Of a DNA stretch of 64,000 nt, positions 46,545 to 52,405 are shown in pieces. A program made the position numbers and the translations under genes. The DNA lies in contig JANQKC010000021.1 of NCBI GenBank assembly GCA_028281325.1, positions 310,001-374,000 on the forward strand, written 5' to 3'. This DNA is from Alphaproteobacteria bacterium (lineage in GTDB: Bacteria; Pseudomonadota; Alphaproteobacteria; UBA8366). How positions within the stretch are numbered: position 1 is the first letter of the stretch; the number at the start of each line of letters is the position of its first letter. Below the pieces are notes generated by a model. It saw only the letters and a program-made list of their open reading frames with translations. It was not told the origin of the DNA and ran no database searches.

Positions 46545-47231
46545 TCACGGAACCAGGCGGTAACCGCCGGGTTCGGTCACCAGGATTTCCGCGTTCGACG
46601 GGTCGCGTTCGATCTTCTGACGCAGCCGGTAGACATGGGTTTCCAGCGTATGCGTCGTGACGCCCGCGTTGTATCCCCAGACCTCGCCCAACAGCGTGTC
46701 GCGGCCGACCACCTTGTCGCCGGACCGATAGAGATATTTCAGGATGGCGGTTTCCTTCTCGGTCAACCGCACCTTCTTGCTCGTCTCTTCGTCGACGAGA
46801 ATCTTCGAACTCGGCATGAAGGTGTAGGGTCCGATGGTGAAGACCGCGTCCTCGCTCTGCTCATGCTGGCGAAGCTGCGCGCGCAGCCGCGCCAACAGTA
46901 CGCCGAGCCGGAACGGCTTGGAGATGTAGTCGTTCGCGCCCGCGTCGAGGCCGAGGATCGTGTCCGCATCGGTATCCGCCGCGGTCAGCATGATGATCGG
47001 CGATTTGACGCCGCCCCGCCGCATCAACCGGCAGGCCTCGCGGCCGTCCATGTCGGGCAGCCCCACGTCGAGCAGGATCGCGTCATAATATTCCTGCTTC
47101 GCCTGCTCGATCCCTTCGCCCGCGGTGCCGCAGGCCGCCGTCGTGAATTCCTCGTGCAGCTGCAACTGCTCTTCAAGGGAGGAGCGGAGCACTTCATCGT
47201 CGTCGACGAGTAAAATTTTCTTGCCAGTCAT
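46545..47231 (-). CDS. OmpR-family response regulator
   Basis: A 228-residue regulator. The receiver domain has acidic residues in ILLVDDDEVLR, the phospho-acceptor Asp in AILLDVGLPDMDG, the Thr in IIMLTAADT and the Lys in YISKPFRLG. The winged-helix DNA-binding domain follows (VRLTEKETAILKYLYRSG, then VTTHTLETHVYRLRQKIERD). No kinase is adjacent. Whether the orphan kinase at 2.0-3.8 kb is its partner is unknown. The upstream region (47232-47409) holds its promoter and short inverted repeats but no gene. Confidence 0.93.
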   Translation of the reverse strand: MTGKKILLVDDDEVLRSSLEEQLQLHEEFTTAACGTAGEGIEQAKQEYYDAILLDVGLPDMDGREACRLMRRGGVKSPIIMLTAADTDADTILGLDAGANDYISKPFRLGVLLARLRAQLRQHEQSEDAVFTIGPYTFMPSSKILVDEETSKKVRLTEKETAILKYLYRSGDKVVGRDTLLGEVWGYNAGVTTHTLETHVYRLRQKIERDPSNAEILVTEPGGYRLVP

Positions 47232-47409: not shown

Positions 47410-48240
47410 TCACGGCGAATTGAGGGGCGGTGAACGACTCGCGGGGGAACCCGACGGCGGCAGCGCCAAACAGTCGCGATGCCCGATAACGAGACGGAGT
47501 TGCCCGGCGGCCGCCTGGGCCCGGCGGCGGTCGGACCAGCCGGCGACCGCGTCCCGGCTTTCGAACAGCGCGGCATCGGCCGCCGCCGCCGCAAAGCCGT
47601 CGATCATGCGGCCGAGCATCACGCGGTCCTTCGACCCGATCCGCCAATCGCTACGGCGCATGTGAACCTGATAGCCCCGCGCGCGCAGGTCGGCGGCCAG
47701 CCGCCACGGCGCGGCGGCGCCGAGCGCCGGCCCGAACCCCTTGTCGCGCGCCTGATCGCGTCGGAACAGCCGCAGCACCAGCGCGTCGTCGGGGTCTTGC
47801 GGCGTCCAGGCGACGCGCCCGTCGACCGACAGCGCGACCAGGACCGGCAGCCGGCGGCGCGCAACCGCCCGCGCAAACCGCGCCAACCACGCCGCCGACA
47901 CCAGATCGGCGAAAGCCGCCGCGGTAACGCCATCGACGCGCGCGAGCGTGCGCGGCCAAGCGGGCCGGGCAAGGTCGAGGGCCCGCCGCTCCATCCGCGC
48001 GGTGCGCAAATCGGCGGCGGCGAGCAAGGCACGGTCCGCGTCCGCCAGCACCCAGTCGGCGCGGCCCTGGCCCATCGACATGAGATATCGGGCATTCGAT
48101 CCCGCACCCGCCGCCAGGTCCAACACGCGCGGGGCGGCGGGCAGGACCGTCAGGAAACGATGCGCCAGGGCAGCCGAACGGGCCGCGTGATCGTAAGGCT
48201 CGCGCAGGCGCAGCCACGTCTCGGCGAATGTCTCGGTCAC
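47410..48240 (-). CDS. class I SAM-dependent methyltransferase
   Basis: A 276-residue protein starting with GTG at 48240, chosen because that start overlaps by 4 bp (GTGA) the stop of the upstream glycosyltransferase. Motif I is VLDLAAGAGSNARYL, the acidic position is VLADADRALLAAA, and LVSAAWLARFARAVARRRLP follows. It is the last gene of a five-gene minus-strand operon with RibD-like, MDR, PTPS-like and glycosyltransferase genes, so it probably methylates the same small-molecule product. Methyl acceptor unknown. Confidence 0.82.
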   Translation of the reverse strand: MTETFAETWLRLREPYDHAARSAALAHRFLTVLPAAPRVLDLAAGAGSNARYLMSMGQGRADWVLADADRALLAAADLRTARMERRALDLARPAWPRTLARVDGVTAAAFADLVSAAWLARFARAVARRRLPVLVALSVDGRVAWTPQDPDDALVLRLFRRDQARDKGFGPALGAAAPWRLAADLRARGYQVHMRRSDWRIGSKDRVMLGRMIDGFAAAAADAALFESRDAVAGWSDRRRAQAAAGQLRLVIGHRDCLALPPSGSPASRSPPLNSP

Positions 48241-49313
48241 GGCGCGCTCACCGCCGCGGCGAAACGCGCGGCCGCCGTCGGCCAATCCGGCAGCGCCCGC
48301 CCAGCCGCGTAGGCGCCCGAAGCTTTGGCGGCGCGCAGGCCGGGGTCCGCGATCAGGGCGCGCAAGGCGGCGACCAGCGCGGCATGATCGCCGGCCGGCA
48401 CGATCATCCCCGCCGCTGCGGGCACTGTATCCGCGACTGCGCCGCCGCCGCTGGCGATCACCGGCAGGCCGCGCGCCATCGCCTCGGCGAACGCCATGCC
48501 ATACCCTTCGTAGAAGGATGCGAGGACAAACAGGTCCGCCGCCGCATACAACGAGTCCAACGCCACGCCGCGCACCTCCCCGGCCAGCGTCACCCGGGCG
48601 GCCAGACCGGTCTCATCAAGCGCCCGCGCGACCGCCGCCGGCGTGTCCGGGTCGCGGTCCGCCGGCCCGGCGCAGGTCAGATGCCAATCCAGATCGGCGC
48701 AATCGGCCAAGGCGGCGATCAGCCCAAGATGTCCTTTCCGGGGCGTCAGCGCGGCGACGCACAGCAACTGCACCGTCGGGCCGTCCGATCCCGTGGCGCA
48801 CGGCGCTGGGTCGGTCCCGGGCTCGACCACCGCGATGCGCTCGGCGGGCACGTCGAAATCCGCGAGCCGCCGCGCCATCGCCGGGCTCGGCACGACGATA
48901 CGCCGCAACGTTTCGAACAAGGCGGTTTCCGTGGCGCGCAACGCTTGCTGCGTTTCCGGCGACAACCCCGTCTCGTCGCTGACCGGGTGATGCACCAGCG
49001 CCATTGGCGTCAGACGCGCCGCATGAACCGGCAGGGCCTGTTCGAACGCCGGAAGCGCGAGGCCATCCACGACGACGCGGGCGCCATCCGGCAACGCGGC
49101 GAGCACCGCCGCCGCCGCGCCGCATGCTACCGCGTCGGTGTCGGGGAACCGCCCCGGCAGTTCGTGCAGGTCGACACGCCAGCCGATGCGGCGCAATCCG
49201 TCGATCACGCGCTTGTCATAGAGGGAGCCGCCGGTCGGCGTGTCGATCGCGCCGGGATGGATGAAATGCAGGACCGGCCCGACGGCGGGCCTGCCCGCCT
49301 CACTCGGAGTCAT
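48237..49313 (-). CDS. glycosyltransferase family 4 protein
   Basis: A 358-residue GT-B enzyme. The N-terminal half has LHFIHPGAIDTPTGGSLYDK, placing the glycine loop, and ALVHHPVSDETGL. The donor domain has LLCVAALTPRKGHLGLI, FVLASFYEGYGMAFAEAMAR (EX7E pair) and GLPVIASGGGAVADTV. The chosen ATG (49313) overlaps the upstream PTPS-like stop by 14 bp. Within this operon it likely glycosylates a pterin, flavin-like or alcohol-type product (inference). Confidence 0.85.
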   Translation of the reverse strand: MTPSEAGRPAVGPVLHFIHPGAIDTPTGGSLYDKRVIDGLRRIGWRVDLHELPGRFPDTDAVACGAAAAVLAALPDGARVVVDGLALPAFEQALPVHAARLTPMALVHHPVSDETGLSPETQQALRATETALFETLRRIVVPSPAMARRLADFDVPAERIAVVEPGTDPAPCATGSDGPTVQLLCVAALTPRKGHLGLIAALADCADLDWHLTCAGPADRDPDTPAAVARALDETGLAARVTLAGEVRGVALDSLYAAADLFVLASFYEGYGMAFAEAMARGLPVIASGGGAVADTVPAAAGMIVPAGDHAALVAALRALIADPGLRAAKASGAYAAGRALPDWPTAAARFAAAVSAP

Positions 49314-49728
49314 CACCCCGGTCTTCGTGCACGGTGCCGGCGTAACTTGCCCAGGCATTCGGCGTTTCCCGCAGGGTAACGGCGATCCGCTTCACCTCGG
49401 TCGCGGTGTCGCCGCCGAGCCGGCCCTGGACCACGCCATGGCGGAACCGTTCGAAGATGTCGCGGGCGAGAAACTCGGTGGTCGTCACCTGCCCGGCGTA
49501 TTGCGGCAGGTCGTCGAGGTTGCGGTAGGAGAGCGGCTCCAGCACCTCGGCCAACAGGGCGCTGGCGCGGCCGATGTCGGCGACGATATTGTCGCGGTCC
49601 AATCCCGGCCGGCGGAGTTCCACCTCCACCACATAGGTTGCGCCGTGCATCCGCTGCGCGGGACCGAACACCTCGCCCTTCAGGCTGTGCGCGATCATGA
49701 TGCTGTCGGAAACGGTGACGCTGAACAT
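49300..49728 (-). CDS. 6-pyruvoyl-tetrahydropterin synthase-like protein, variant active site
   Basis: A 142-residue PTPS/QueD-fold protein. His14 (MIAHSL) and His28 (MHGATY) align with two zinc ligands. The third ligand, the second His of the usual HGHNY motif, is Ala30, and the catalytic Cys before that motif is absent. The late ETPNAWASYAG with the substrate-binding Glu is kept. So it is probably not a true 6-pyruvoyltetrahydropterin or queuosine enzyme but a derived relative. It lies 3 bp after the MDR dehydrogenase gene and overlaps the glycosyltransferase gene. Confidence 0.85.
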   Translation of the reverse strand: MFSVTVSDSIMIAHSLKGEVFGPAQRMHGATYVVEVELRRPGLDRDNIVADIGRASALLAEVLEPLSYRNLDDLPQYAGQVTTTEFLARDIFERFRHGVVQGRLGGDTATEVKRIAVTLRETPNAWASYAGTVHEDRGDDSE

Positions 49729-49731
49729 GTC

Positions 49732-50700
49732 CTATTCCTCGCTGTCGTAAGTCACCACATGGCATAACGCGCCGCTCGGCTCGGCGGCAAGCCGCGCCAT
49801 CGTCGCGGGCAGGTCCTCGAAACGGCTTTCCCCGGTCAACAGCACATCGAACGCCGGGTCGCCCAGCAACTCCAACGCCAGCACGAGCCGGTCGCGATGG
49901 CTGCGGCGGCTGCGCCGGGCGGCCGCGACGGAGCCGACCTGCGACGATTTGAGAATCAGGCGGCCGCTGTGGAAATTGCCGCCGAGCGGGACCGGCACGC
50001 TACCCGCCCCGTACCAACTGATTTCCAGCACCGTCGCCTCGAACCCCGCGAGTCTTAGAGACGTCGCGAGACCATCCGCCGAGCCGCTGGCGTGGATCAC
50101 CAGGTCCGCATCGGCGCGGGCATCGCCGGGCAAGGCGAAATCCACGCCCAATGCGGCAGCGGTGTCGGCCCGCGCCGGATCGATATCCACGAGTTGCACC
50201 GCCGTCGCCGGATGCCGCGCGGCCAGCGCCGCGGCAAGGCAGCCGACCGTGCCGCCGCCGACCACGGCGATGCGGTCGCCGAGGCGTGGCCCGGCGTCCC
50301 AGAGCGCGTTGATCGCGGTTTCCATGTTGGCGGCCAGCACCGCGCGGCGGTCCGGCACGGCGTCGGGCACCGGTGCCAGCGCCGCCGCCGGCACGCAGAA
50401 ACGGTCCTGATGCGGGTGCAGACAGAACACCCGGTCGCCCGCATCGGTGCGGCCGACCACCGCGTATCCGTATTTCACCGGGGCGGGAAAATCGCCTGCC
50501 TGAAAAGGGCACCGCATGATGTCGACTTGATCGTCGGGCACCGCGCCGCGGAAGACCAGACTTTCGGTGCCCCGGCTGATGCCGCTGGCCACGGCGGTTA
50601 CGCGGGCGTCACCGGGGCCCGGATTTTCGATTGTTTCGCCGCGGATCTCGCCTTCGCCCGGCCGGACGACCCAGAAGGCGCGCGCCGGCACGTTACGCAT
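49732..50700 (-). CDS. medium-chain dehydrogenase/reductase without zinc-site residues
   Basis: A 322-residue MDR-fold protein. The catalytic-domain part reads VASGISRGTESLVFRGAVP, a form also seen in BchC-like dehydrogenases. The zinc-binding Cys and GHE motifs of alcohol dehydrogenases are missing. The nucleotide-binding motif is IAVVGGGTVGCLAAALAAR, followed by an acidic residue at the end of the next strand (QLVDID), which suggests NAD(H) preference. It probably reduces or oxidises an intermediate of the cluster product. It overlaps the RibD-like gene by 8 bp. Confidence 0.85.
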   Translation of the reverse strand: MRNVPARAFWVVRPGEGEIRGETIENPGPGDARVTAVASGISRGTESLVFRGAVPDDQVDIMRCPFQAGDFPAPVKYGYAVVGRTDAGDRVFCLHPHQDRFCVPAAALAPVPDAVPDRRAVLAANMETAINALWDAGPRLGDRIAVVGGGTVGCLAAALAARHPATAVQLVDIDPARADTAAALGVDFALPGDARADADLVIHASGSADGLATSLRLAGFEATVLEISWYGAGSVPVPLGGNFHSGRLILKSSQVGSVAAARRSRRSHRDRLVLALELLGDPAFDVLLTGESRFEDLPATMARLAAEPSGALCHVVTYDSEE

Positions 50701-51553
50701 CCAACAGGCACTCGATCATGACATCCGCGCCGAAGCGGAACCGCCGCACCGCCGGGCGCAGCACATCGGTCAGGGTCTCCACCTGCGGCAGGACGATGCC
50801 GGGCCGTCCCGAGCCGATGATCAGCGGCGCAACGGTGATCTGCAGCCGGTCGAGACAGCCCGCCTCCAGAAAGCGCGACACGGTGACGCCGCCGCCCTCG
50901 ATGAACAGCCGGTGCATCCCCCGGCCGGTCAGCGTCTCGCGGATCGCCGCCGGACACAGGCCCTTGCCCCAGCGTTCGATGCCGATCACCTCGGCGTCGC
51001 CATGCCGGTCGCCGTCGCCCACTTTGTCCGTCGCGGTCAGTAACAGAGTTTCCGCCGCGCCGTCGCGGAAGACGCCGAAATTCGTATCGAGCCGACGGTC
51101 GGTATCGATCACCACGCGCACCGGCTCGTCCCCGCTGCACAAGCGCACGGTCAATTGCGGATCGTCGTGGCGCACCGTGCCCGCGCCGACGATGACCGCG
51201 TCGAACAAGGCGCGCATGCGGTGATTGTGCAGGATGTCTTCCGGCCCGGTGACGTAATGCGACGCGCCCGACGCCGTCGCGATCCGGCCATCCAGGCTCT
51301 GTCCCAGATGCGCCACGATGCAATCGGGGCCGATCGCCAGCAATGGAGCGTAGAGGTCCAGCAGATCGGTGCAGCCGTCGGCGTCGCGGGCCGCGCCATC
51401 GTCGCGCACGGCCGCGGCGGCCGGCCCGCGCCCGTTAAACAACCCGCGCTCGCGCACCGCATCGGGCGACAACCGCGCCATCGCCCGCAGGGCATCCCAA
51501 GCCGGCGCGTCATGAGAGCGGCGCGCCGCTCGCGGCTGTTCCATCGAAGTCAT
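50693..51553 (-). CDS. RibD C-terminal-type pyrimidine/dihydrofolate reductase
   Basis: A 286-residue protein whose C-terminal part (from about residue 75) is the RibD reductase domain: CIVAHLGQSLDGRIAT, DAVIVGAGTVRHDDPQLTVR, LFIEGGGVTVSRFLEAG and a segment through PLIIGSGRPGIVLP. There is no cytidine-deaminase-like domain, so it is not a full RibD. The first 70 residues are variable. The first gene of the operon, it is divergent (105 bp) from the CDP-alcohol transferase. The start at ATG 51553 was chosen; longer frames cross the divergent gene. Confidence 0.88.
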   Translation of the reverse strand: MTSMEQPRAARRSHDAPAWDALRAMARLSPDAVRERGLFNGRGPAAAAVRDDGAARDADGCTDLLDLYAPLLAIGPDCIVAHLGQSLDGRIATASGASHYVTGPEDILHNHRMRALFDAVIVGAGTVRHDDPQLTVRLCSGDEPVRVVIDTDRRLDTNFGVFRDGAAETLLLTATDKVGDGDRHGDAEVIGIERWGKGLCPAAIRETLTGRGMHRLFIEGGGVTVSRFLEAGCLDRLQITVAPLIIGSGRPGIVLPQVETLTDVLRPAVRRFRFGADVMIECLLDA

Positions 51554-51658
51554 TGCGTCACACGATGCGGTGTCAGCGGTTGATTGGCAAGACGGCGAAA
51601 CGAAAGCGTGAACGCCGCCCCTGGATTCAGCGACCCAAAGCGCCCAGGTTAGACATAT

Positions 51659-52405
51659 ATGACTCGACTCACGACATATCCATCCGCCCGGCGATCCGCC
51701 CTGCTCGGGGGCGCGGTCACCGCCGCCACGGTCGGCGCGGCGGTCGTCGCGCTCGGCGTGTCGCTCTATGCGTCGGCGGCCAGCCTTGCGATCGCGGCCA
51801 GCGGTTATGCGATCGTCGCCACGATCATGCTGGGCGGCCTCGTCTACAGCGGCATCGCGGCCCCCTTCGGCGCCGCCAACGTCATCACCCTGGGACGGGC
51901 CGGCATGATCATGATCGTCGCCGGGTTCGCGATCGACAGCGTGACCTATGGCGCAACCGCCTGGTGGATCGCCGCGGGCCTGGCAACCGCCGCCTTCCTG
52001 CTCGACGGCGTCGACGGCTGGGCGGCCCGGCGCGGCGGCCGTTGCACGCGGTTCGGCGCCCGGTTCGATATGGAAGTCGACGCGGTGTTCGCGCTCGTCG
52101 TCGCCGCCGTGCTGTGGCAGACCAGCAAAGTCGGGGCTTGGATCATGCTGATCGGCGCGTTGCGCTATCTCTTCATCCTCGCCGGCGCCCTGTCTCCGGC
52201 GATGCAGGCCCCGTTGCCGCGGAGCAATCGGCGGCGGGCGGTTTGCGCTTTCCAAGGCGGCGCCCTTTGTGTCGCGTTGATGCCCGTAATCGACGGGGGC
52301 CTCGCGGCCGGGTTGGCCGGCGCGGCGTTGCTGGCGACCGTAACGTCCTTCGCAATCGATACCGTCTGGCTGCTGCGGCGGCGCAGCCAAGCCCCGGCAC
52401 GCTAG
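51659..52405 (+). CDS. CDP-alcohol phosphatidyltransferase family membrane protein
   Basis: A 248-residue protein with about six transmembrane helices. The full catalytic motif DGxxARx8GxxxDxxxD is present from DGWAARRGG to FDMEVD (about residues 119-141). The family transfers a phosphatidyl or phospho-alcohol group from a CDP-linked donor to an alcohol. The N-terminus is basic. It is divergent from the RibD-like operon across 105 bp. It may attach the cluster product to a lipid head-group, which is an inference. Confidence 0.86.
   Translation: MTRLTTYPSARRSALLGGAVTAATVGAAVVALGVSLYASAASLAIAASGYAIVATIMLGGLVYSGIAAPFGAANVITLGRAGMIMIVAGFAIDSVTYGATAWWIAAGLATAAFLLDGVDGWAARRGGRCTRFGARFDMEVDAVFALVVAAVLWQTSKVGAWIMLIGALRYLFILAGALSPAMQAPLPRSNRRRAVCAFQGGALCVALMPVIDGGLAAGLAGAALLATVTSFAIDTVWLLRRRSQAPAR

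Follow-up and report, generated by a model that had tools for sequence, protein, structure and literature searches.

The stretch of DNA analyzed here (the window) covers 64,000 nucleotides of an alphaproteobacterial genome of 5.1 Mb in 41 contigs (GCA_028281325.1; contig JANQKC010000021.1, positions 310,001 to 374,000). At positions 47410–52405 it holds a cluster of six genes belonging to one co-conserved pathway of the GTP-derived pteridine kind, widespread and mostly uncharacterised.

Gene layout and co-conservation of the cluster

Five of the genes lie on the minus strand and, in their direction of reading, encode a RibD_C reductase without a deaminase domain (50693..51550; PF01872 at 2e-35, start codon uncertain), a zinc-less medium-chain dehydrogenase/reductase (MDR) of a BchC-like subgroup (49732..50700; TIGR01202 bchC at 1e-10, under its cut-off, and ADH_zinc_N at 8.5e-5), a T-fold homologue of pyruvoyltetrahydropterin synthase (PTPS), namely the PTPS-IV protein (49300..49728; PF01242 at 1e-23), a GT4-family glycosyltransferase (48237..49313; Glycos_transf_1 at 3e-25) and a class I S-adenosylmethionine (SAM) methyltransferase (47410..48240; Methyltransf_25 at 4e-4). 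On the plus strand, the open reading frame (ORF) calls place a gene for a divergent CDP-alcohol phosphatidyltransferase with an N-terminal extension so that it faces this run (51659..52405; PF01066 at 6e-16). A preliminary description of this DNA had listed the six genes with their order, facing and spacings, and all six ORFs were recovered; the minus-strand junctions are exactly –8, +3, –14 and –4 bp with the glycosyltransferase start at 49313 (frame open to 49358) and the methyltransferase GTG start at 48240 (frame open to 48285). The RibD_C, PTPS, GT4 and CDP-alcohol transferase proteins have clear Pfam matches. The MDR (ADH_zinc_N) and methyltransferase (Methyltransf_25) matches fall under Pfam's own cut-offs, and both folds are backed by NCBIfam BchC-like matches, structure models and fold searches. 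A consensus scan for a sigma-70-like site or a terminator gave nothing above chance, including in the intergenic stretch between the divergent RibD_C and CDP-alcohol transferase genes (51551..51658), which is presumed from its position to be the promoter region. An OmpR-family response regulator at 46545-47231 adjoins the cluster, with 81-98% identity, over the two nearest families; since its synteny is confined to these, it was rejected as a cluster member.

To follow the cluster beyond the window, the PTPS-like protein was searched for in 59 genomes including the window's own. Orthologues of 47-87% identity occur in eighteen relatives, after which there is a gap to the 30-34% of two QueD-like proteins; these relatives and the best named matches are Alphaproteobacteria. 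The MDR and glycosyltransferase genes stand beside it in identical order in all 18, as does the methyltransferase gene wherever the fetched stretch reaches it. An alignment scan of a species-genome collection found PTPS-IV encoded in at least 588 matched stretches, the best 80 of which come from Alpha-, Beta- and Gammaproteobacteria, Actinobacteria, Acidobacteria, Spirochaetes and Thermoleophilia; carriers of the cluster include Streptomyces, Halomonas relatives, Variovorax and alphaproteobacteria of only 1.4 Mb. In an evenly drawn sample of the class, 45 of 385 Alphaproteobacteria have the PTPS-IV protein, with the core kept at nearly all fetched loci. Neighbours were counted at 73 non-redundant, mutually related loci, each with at least 6 kb of flank on both sides. 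The core keeps the order MDR-PTPS-GT-MT (GT and MT being the glycosyl- and methyltransferase) on a single strand. By gene, the counts are MDR at 73 loci, GT at 73, MT at 68, the CDP-alcohol transferase at 60, RibD_C at 53, GTP cyclohydrolase II (GCHII) at 43, a flippase-like PF03706 protein at 41, a creatininase at 30, YceI at 19 and a sulfatase-like protein at 18. Mirror-tree correlations are positive for all pairs, which shared taxonomy could account for. It is unlikely that adjacency of this gene set across phyla is a chance survival without shared function. Thus the co-occurrence of the six families that had been proposed is borne out among the relatives and in other phyla, as is the company of GCHII, which is frequent; the similar sets supposed to occur in other alphaproteobacteria do exist there, and their range extends far wider, over several phyla. 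At one outlying locus (L182, G273:C5) the PTPS-IV and MDR frames are longer (373 and 613 aa) and on opposite strands, with no GT or MT nearby; these may be fusions or a decayed cluster.

The CDP-alcohol transferase, flippase-like, YceI, sulfatase-like and OpgH-type glucosyltransferase genes vary among loci. One could place the GT4, MT, CDP-alcohol transferase, flippase-like and sulfatase-like proteins at the heart of the system, as decorators of an envelope lipid or glycan for which the pteridine enzymes build only a head group. The frequency of CDP-alcohol transferase and flippase-like genes speaks for such a view, as does the recurrence of YceI, sulfatase-like and OpgH-type proteins. We nevertheless judge it unlikely: streamlined genomes of 1.4-1.6 Mb (L178, L179, L180) retain only the creatininase, MDR, PTPS, GT, MT, RibD_C and GCHII genes. 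Because this seven-gene core persists with neither CDP-alcohol transferase nor flippase, the CDP-alcohol transferase is accessory and lipid anchoring is not a core function. The preliminary description had let glycosyl, methyl and phosphoalcohol transferases decorate the product and possibly anchor it to a lipid; the first two do recur, and the anchor falls away as a general feature. An OpgH/MdoH-type glucosyltransferase is a recurrent neighbour of the cluster in those beta- and alphaproteobacteria that often have no CDP-alcohol transferase (L050, L054-L056, L071, L181, L183, L201, L208, L210, L212). The sulfatase-superfamily (PF00884) protein recurs at 18 loci, one of them L042:12996-14765, and might act as a phospho-alcohol transferase. 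A conserved 285-residue protein adjoins the CDP-alcohol transferase gene (L042:6943-7797, L041:6803-7672); it has no Pfam match, and the L042 copy no NCBIfam match either.

Active-site changes and the opening of GTP

The PTPS-like protein is the sole PF01242 protein in the window genome. It shares an FGPAQ signature with 94 of 95 homologues, and its profile matches PDB 3d7j (SCO6650 of S. coelicolor) at 9e-58. For comparison with QueD, two QueD-like proteins of relatives were aligned together with E. coli QueD. The HPCARLHGH motif of QueD reads GPAQRLHGA in PTPS-IV, so that the catalytic Cys is Ala and HGH is HGA, invariant in the family alignment; LDHRHL reads xxYRNL, and the Asp-His of the catalytic triad is gone. 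The pterin-anchoring residues E85 and E121, aligned with those of QueD, are invariant. Judged by the profile match and these residues, the protein is an SCO6650 orthologue of the PTPS-IV subfamily and not a working PTPS or QueD (PTPS-I, II, III). According to reports of the 2008 structure paper, SCO6650 likewise lacked zinc, the triad and PTPS activity. What had been called a PTPS-like enzyme is of the PTPS family and has a solved orthologue in 3D7J, without the catalytic triad or a full zinc site.

The MDR protein is similarly altered. The catalytic zinc motif GHE is found in 0 of 95 homologues and ISRGTE stands in place of the Cys motif. Fold comparison puts its structure model closest to gutB-type, idonate, xylitol and sorbitol dehydrogenases, all within one Z unit of each other, a likeness that fits an enzyme oxidising a polyol side chain. 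The methyltransferase gives a confident class I model; its fold search returned generic class I methyltransferases only, with no indication of the acceptor, and a search by sequence found no solved relatives. The CDP-alcohol transferase motif D..DG..AR(8)G...D...D is present in the window protein and in 69 of 72 homologues.

RibD_C proteins of the cluster lack the deaminase motif HxE..PCxxC in every case (0 of 68). The window protein consists of the RibD_C domain alone; it misses the NCBIfam cut-offs, and its nearest solved relatives are 6p8c and 2azn, reductases of 2,5-diamino-6-(5-phosphoribosylamino)-4(3H)-pyrimidinone (DARP), in keeping with the earlier remark that RibD-type and PTPS-type families handle GTP-derived rings. 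The missing deaminase bears on the idea of a cofactor of the deazaflavin or flavin type, such as F420, being built by the cluster straight from a ribitylaminopyrimidine, the kind of compound that GCHII and RibD_C yield. A 2016 review citing unpublished work places PTPS-IV in archaeal F420 synthesis (PMC5041015), and the cluster is found in actinobacteria, many of them F420 makers. Since F420 requires a deaminated uracil, the deaminase-less RibD_C speaks against this idea; in the survey of recurrent neighbour families, no radical-SAM F0 synthase family was seen. Moreover, the cluster is borne by Halomonas relatives, Variovorax and the 1.4 Mb alphaproteobacteria, none of which is to our knowledge an F420 maker. 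We therefore hold an F420-like product to be very unlikely.

At the loci of relatives, the gene next to that for the CDP-alcohol transferase encodes a GCHII whose zinc cysteines are intact and whose N-terminal domain is degenerate. The cluster GCHII partners align to E. coli RibA (2bz0), whose numbering is used here, its sequence having been checked against 2bz0 in the relevant stretches. Many are altered, with Tyr105 replaced by Met or His in actinobacteria, or Glu53 by Ala or Ser, mostly in proteobacteria and acidobacteria. A creatininase gene adjoins the altered GCHII at 28 of 32 loci compared to 0 of 21 with an unaltered GCHII (Fisher p 4e-11). The rule was replicated on freshly fetched alphaproteobacterial loci, examined after it had been formed: a creatininase accompanied altered GCHII at four of five loci and unaltered GCHII at none of five. 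SCO6655, the neighbour of SCO6650 in S. coelicolor, is a GCHII with this very Tyr to Met change and releases the formyl intermediate. A creatininase-family protein, BrbF, is a proven deformylase of that intermediate (PMC9478397). Because of the coupling to altered GCHII, the behaviour of SCO6655 and the activity of BrbF, the cluster creatininase is probably a formyl-pyrimidine deformylase that completes DARP formation. By the same coupling, and because RibD_C lacks its deaminase and resembles DARP reductases, un-deaminated DARP, a riboflavin precursor, is the probable starting point of the pathway, which would keep the 2-amino group of a pterin.

A proposed pathway and the evidence that weighs on it

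These results suggest, and we consider it fairly probable, that the cluster encodes a pathway of its own, which leaves riboflavin synthesis at the first intermediate and leads toward a glycosylated, methylated product of the pterin or pyrimidine type. GTP would be converted to DARP by the cluster GCHII; if this GCHII goes no further than the formyl intermediate, the cluster creatininase would join it as deformylase. RibD_C would reduce DARP to the ribityl compound ahead of deamination, with the 2-amino group staying in place, and the zinc-less MDR may oxidise the polyol side chain of that compound. PTPS-IV, its PTPS chemistry lost and its pterin-anchoring Glu residues kept, could bind the intermediate and aid ring closure, and GT4 and MT would decorate the ring product. 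The CDP-alcohol transferase, flippase-like, YceI and sulfatase-like proteins would be optional, for product transport or a link to an envelope alcohol. For the MDR step the likeliest reaction, proposed with low confidence, may be 2'-OH to ketone, which with RibD_C would amount to a redox-split Amadori rearrangement giving a dihydroneopterin-phosphate-type pterin.

A bolder form of this branch, which seems to us unlikely, would be a FolE-independent pterin route: RibD_C and MDR would give FolE's deoxypentulosyl intermediate, zinc-free PTPS-IV would close the ring, and the glycosylated pterins then made by GT4 and MT would form a new class in hundreds of species, perhaps as a cofactor or bound to the envelope. 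A gap in FolE was considered as support for such a bypass and dropped. Four cluster-positive genomes (G202, G299, G376, G269) are without FolE and FolE2 and keep FolK; a congener without the cluster (G072) is missing FolK as well. FolK is, however, also kept in 5 of 14 cluster-negative genomes without FolE (a count made on FolE alone). Furthermore, a divergent TrpF/PRAI-like gene flanks the folate operon (pabB-pabA-pabC-folP-folB-folK) in each of G202, G299 and G376. In Chlamydia, Adams et al. reportedly described in 2014 a bypass of FolE in which GCHII and TrpF make pterin from DARP. Because the TrpF-like flanking gene points to a Chlamydia-type solution and FolK also occurs in cluster-negatives, the FolE gap is no evidence for a bypass by the cluster. 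The TrpF/PRAI-like genes, at L218:7017-7670, L219:8444-9106 and L220:8220-8882, possibly represent a GCHII and TrpF-like folate bypass outside Chlamydia.

FolE is in fact present in 41 of the 45 cluster-positive alphaproteobacteria, as would be expected if PTPS-IV and MDR used a canonical FolE-derived pterin and GCHII and RibD_C were merely extra riboflavin genes nearby. Relatives of family f2 fit this too: they have two PF00925 proteins, of which one scores as RibBX-like and the stronger is the cluster GCHII, which may feed riboflavin as well. Yet GCHII and RibD_C accompany the core in different phyla, the cluster RibD_C is deaminase-less while the window genome's full RibD sits beside RibBX on another contig, and the survey of recurrent neighbour families did not bring up FolE. 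On balance we find the use of a canonical pterin distinctly unlikely.

Returning to the branch off riboflavin synthesis, several observations weigh against it. Since the 73 loci come from a ranking by PTPS similarity and are related to one another, the neighbour counts are not independent events. RibD_C is missing near 20 of the 73, mostly in creatininase-bearing actinobacteria, where either another reductase serves or RibD_C is not essential. The likeness of the MDR fold to polyol dehydrogenases leaves the substrate undecided, and the best NCBIfam match of the cluster creatininase is MftE, under its cut-off and above ArfB. Finally, the window genome and its congener have neither GCHII nor creatininase at the cluster locus. 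The preliminary description had proposed looking for a GTP cyclohydrolase paralogue elsewhere in this genome; the PF00925 search found no recognisable active GCHII, the sole match being a RibBX-like protein (G000:C36:322059-322538, L023) with all three zinc cysteines of its GCHII domain lost. Three creatininase-family proteins are encoded elsewhere in the genome. GTP opening for the cluster must here come from elsewhere than a cluster GCHII; a like gap in the GTP-opening enzyme has been reported in S. meliloti (PMC9478397). A RibBX-like protein is also the only PF00925 match in the congener and in several relatives (among loci L144-L152).

Relation to known systems

As the preliminary description had supposed, we found no described pathway with this combination, nor a known cofactor pathway to which the cluster maps; the literature search, which left most subscription journals outside, gave no description of the whole gene set or its product, and for SCO6649-6656 expression and flux tables only. 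PTPS-IV and part of its neighbourhood had been noticed in 2008 and 2017. The papers of 2006 and 2008 on S. coelicolor proteins reportedly treated single proteins and did not give the product. The cluster thus represents a pathway in hundreds of species, from Streptomyces through Halomonas relatives to streamlined alphaproteobacteria, for which a product description was not found. It provides a biological context for the orphan structure 3D7J and the PTPS-IV subfamily, ties the creatininase family in testable form to a particular alteration of GCHII, and leads one to expect a new metabolite derived from GTP.

A close known counterpart is that of S. coelicolor, where SCO6650 (3D7J) is an orthologue of the window protein with identical replaced residues. 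Streptomyces loci read MDR-PTPS-GT-MT-flippase-creatininase-GCHII with Met for Tyr105, SCO6655 being the GCHII neighbour of SCO6650; the window differs in having RibD_C in the operon and no GCHII or creatininase. Glycosylated pterins are known as cyanopterin and limipterin from cyanobacteria and green sulfur bacteria, cyanopterin being methylated as well, and we know of no link between them and the PTPS-IV cluster. The Chlamydia bypass described above would achieve the same net change as proposed here, by an Amadori isomerase instead of a reductase and a dehydrogenase. PTPS-IV as a subfamily of COG0720, with the FGPAQ signature that the window protein shares and with PF00925 and PF01872 as neighbours, was reported in a 2017 network study; in the available part of that study PF00925 is taken as FolE2, and MDR, GT4, MT, CDP-alcohol transferase, flippase and creatininase are not described (PMC5445326). 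The early riboflavin/F420 steps of archaea (ArfA, ArfB, ArfC) and bacterial BrbF resemble the proposed pathway in that the ring is opened to give a formyl intermediate, a creatininase-family protein removes the formyl group, and reduction precedes deamination; here, these steps would be coupled to PTPS-IV, MDR, GT4 and MT, and the ring opener is of the GCHII type.

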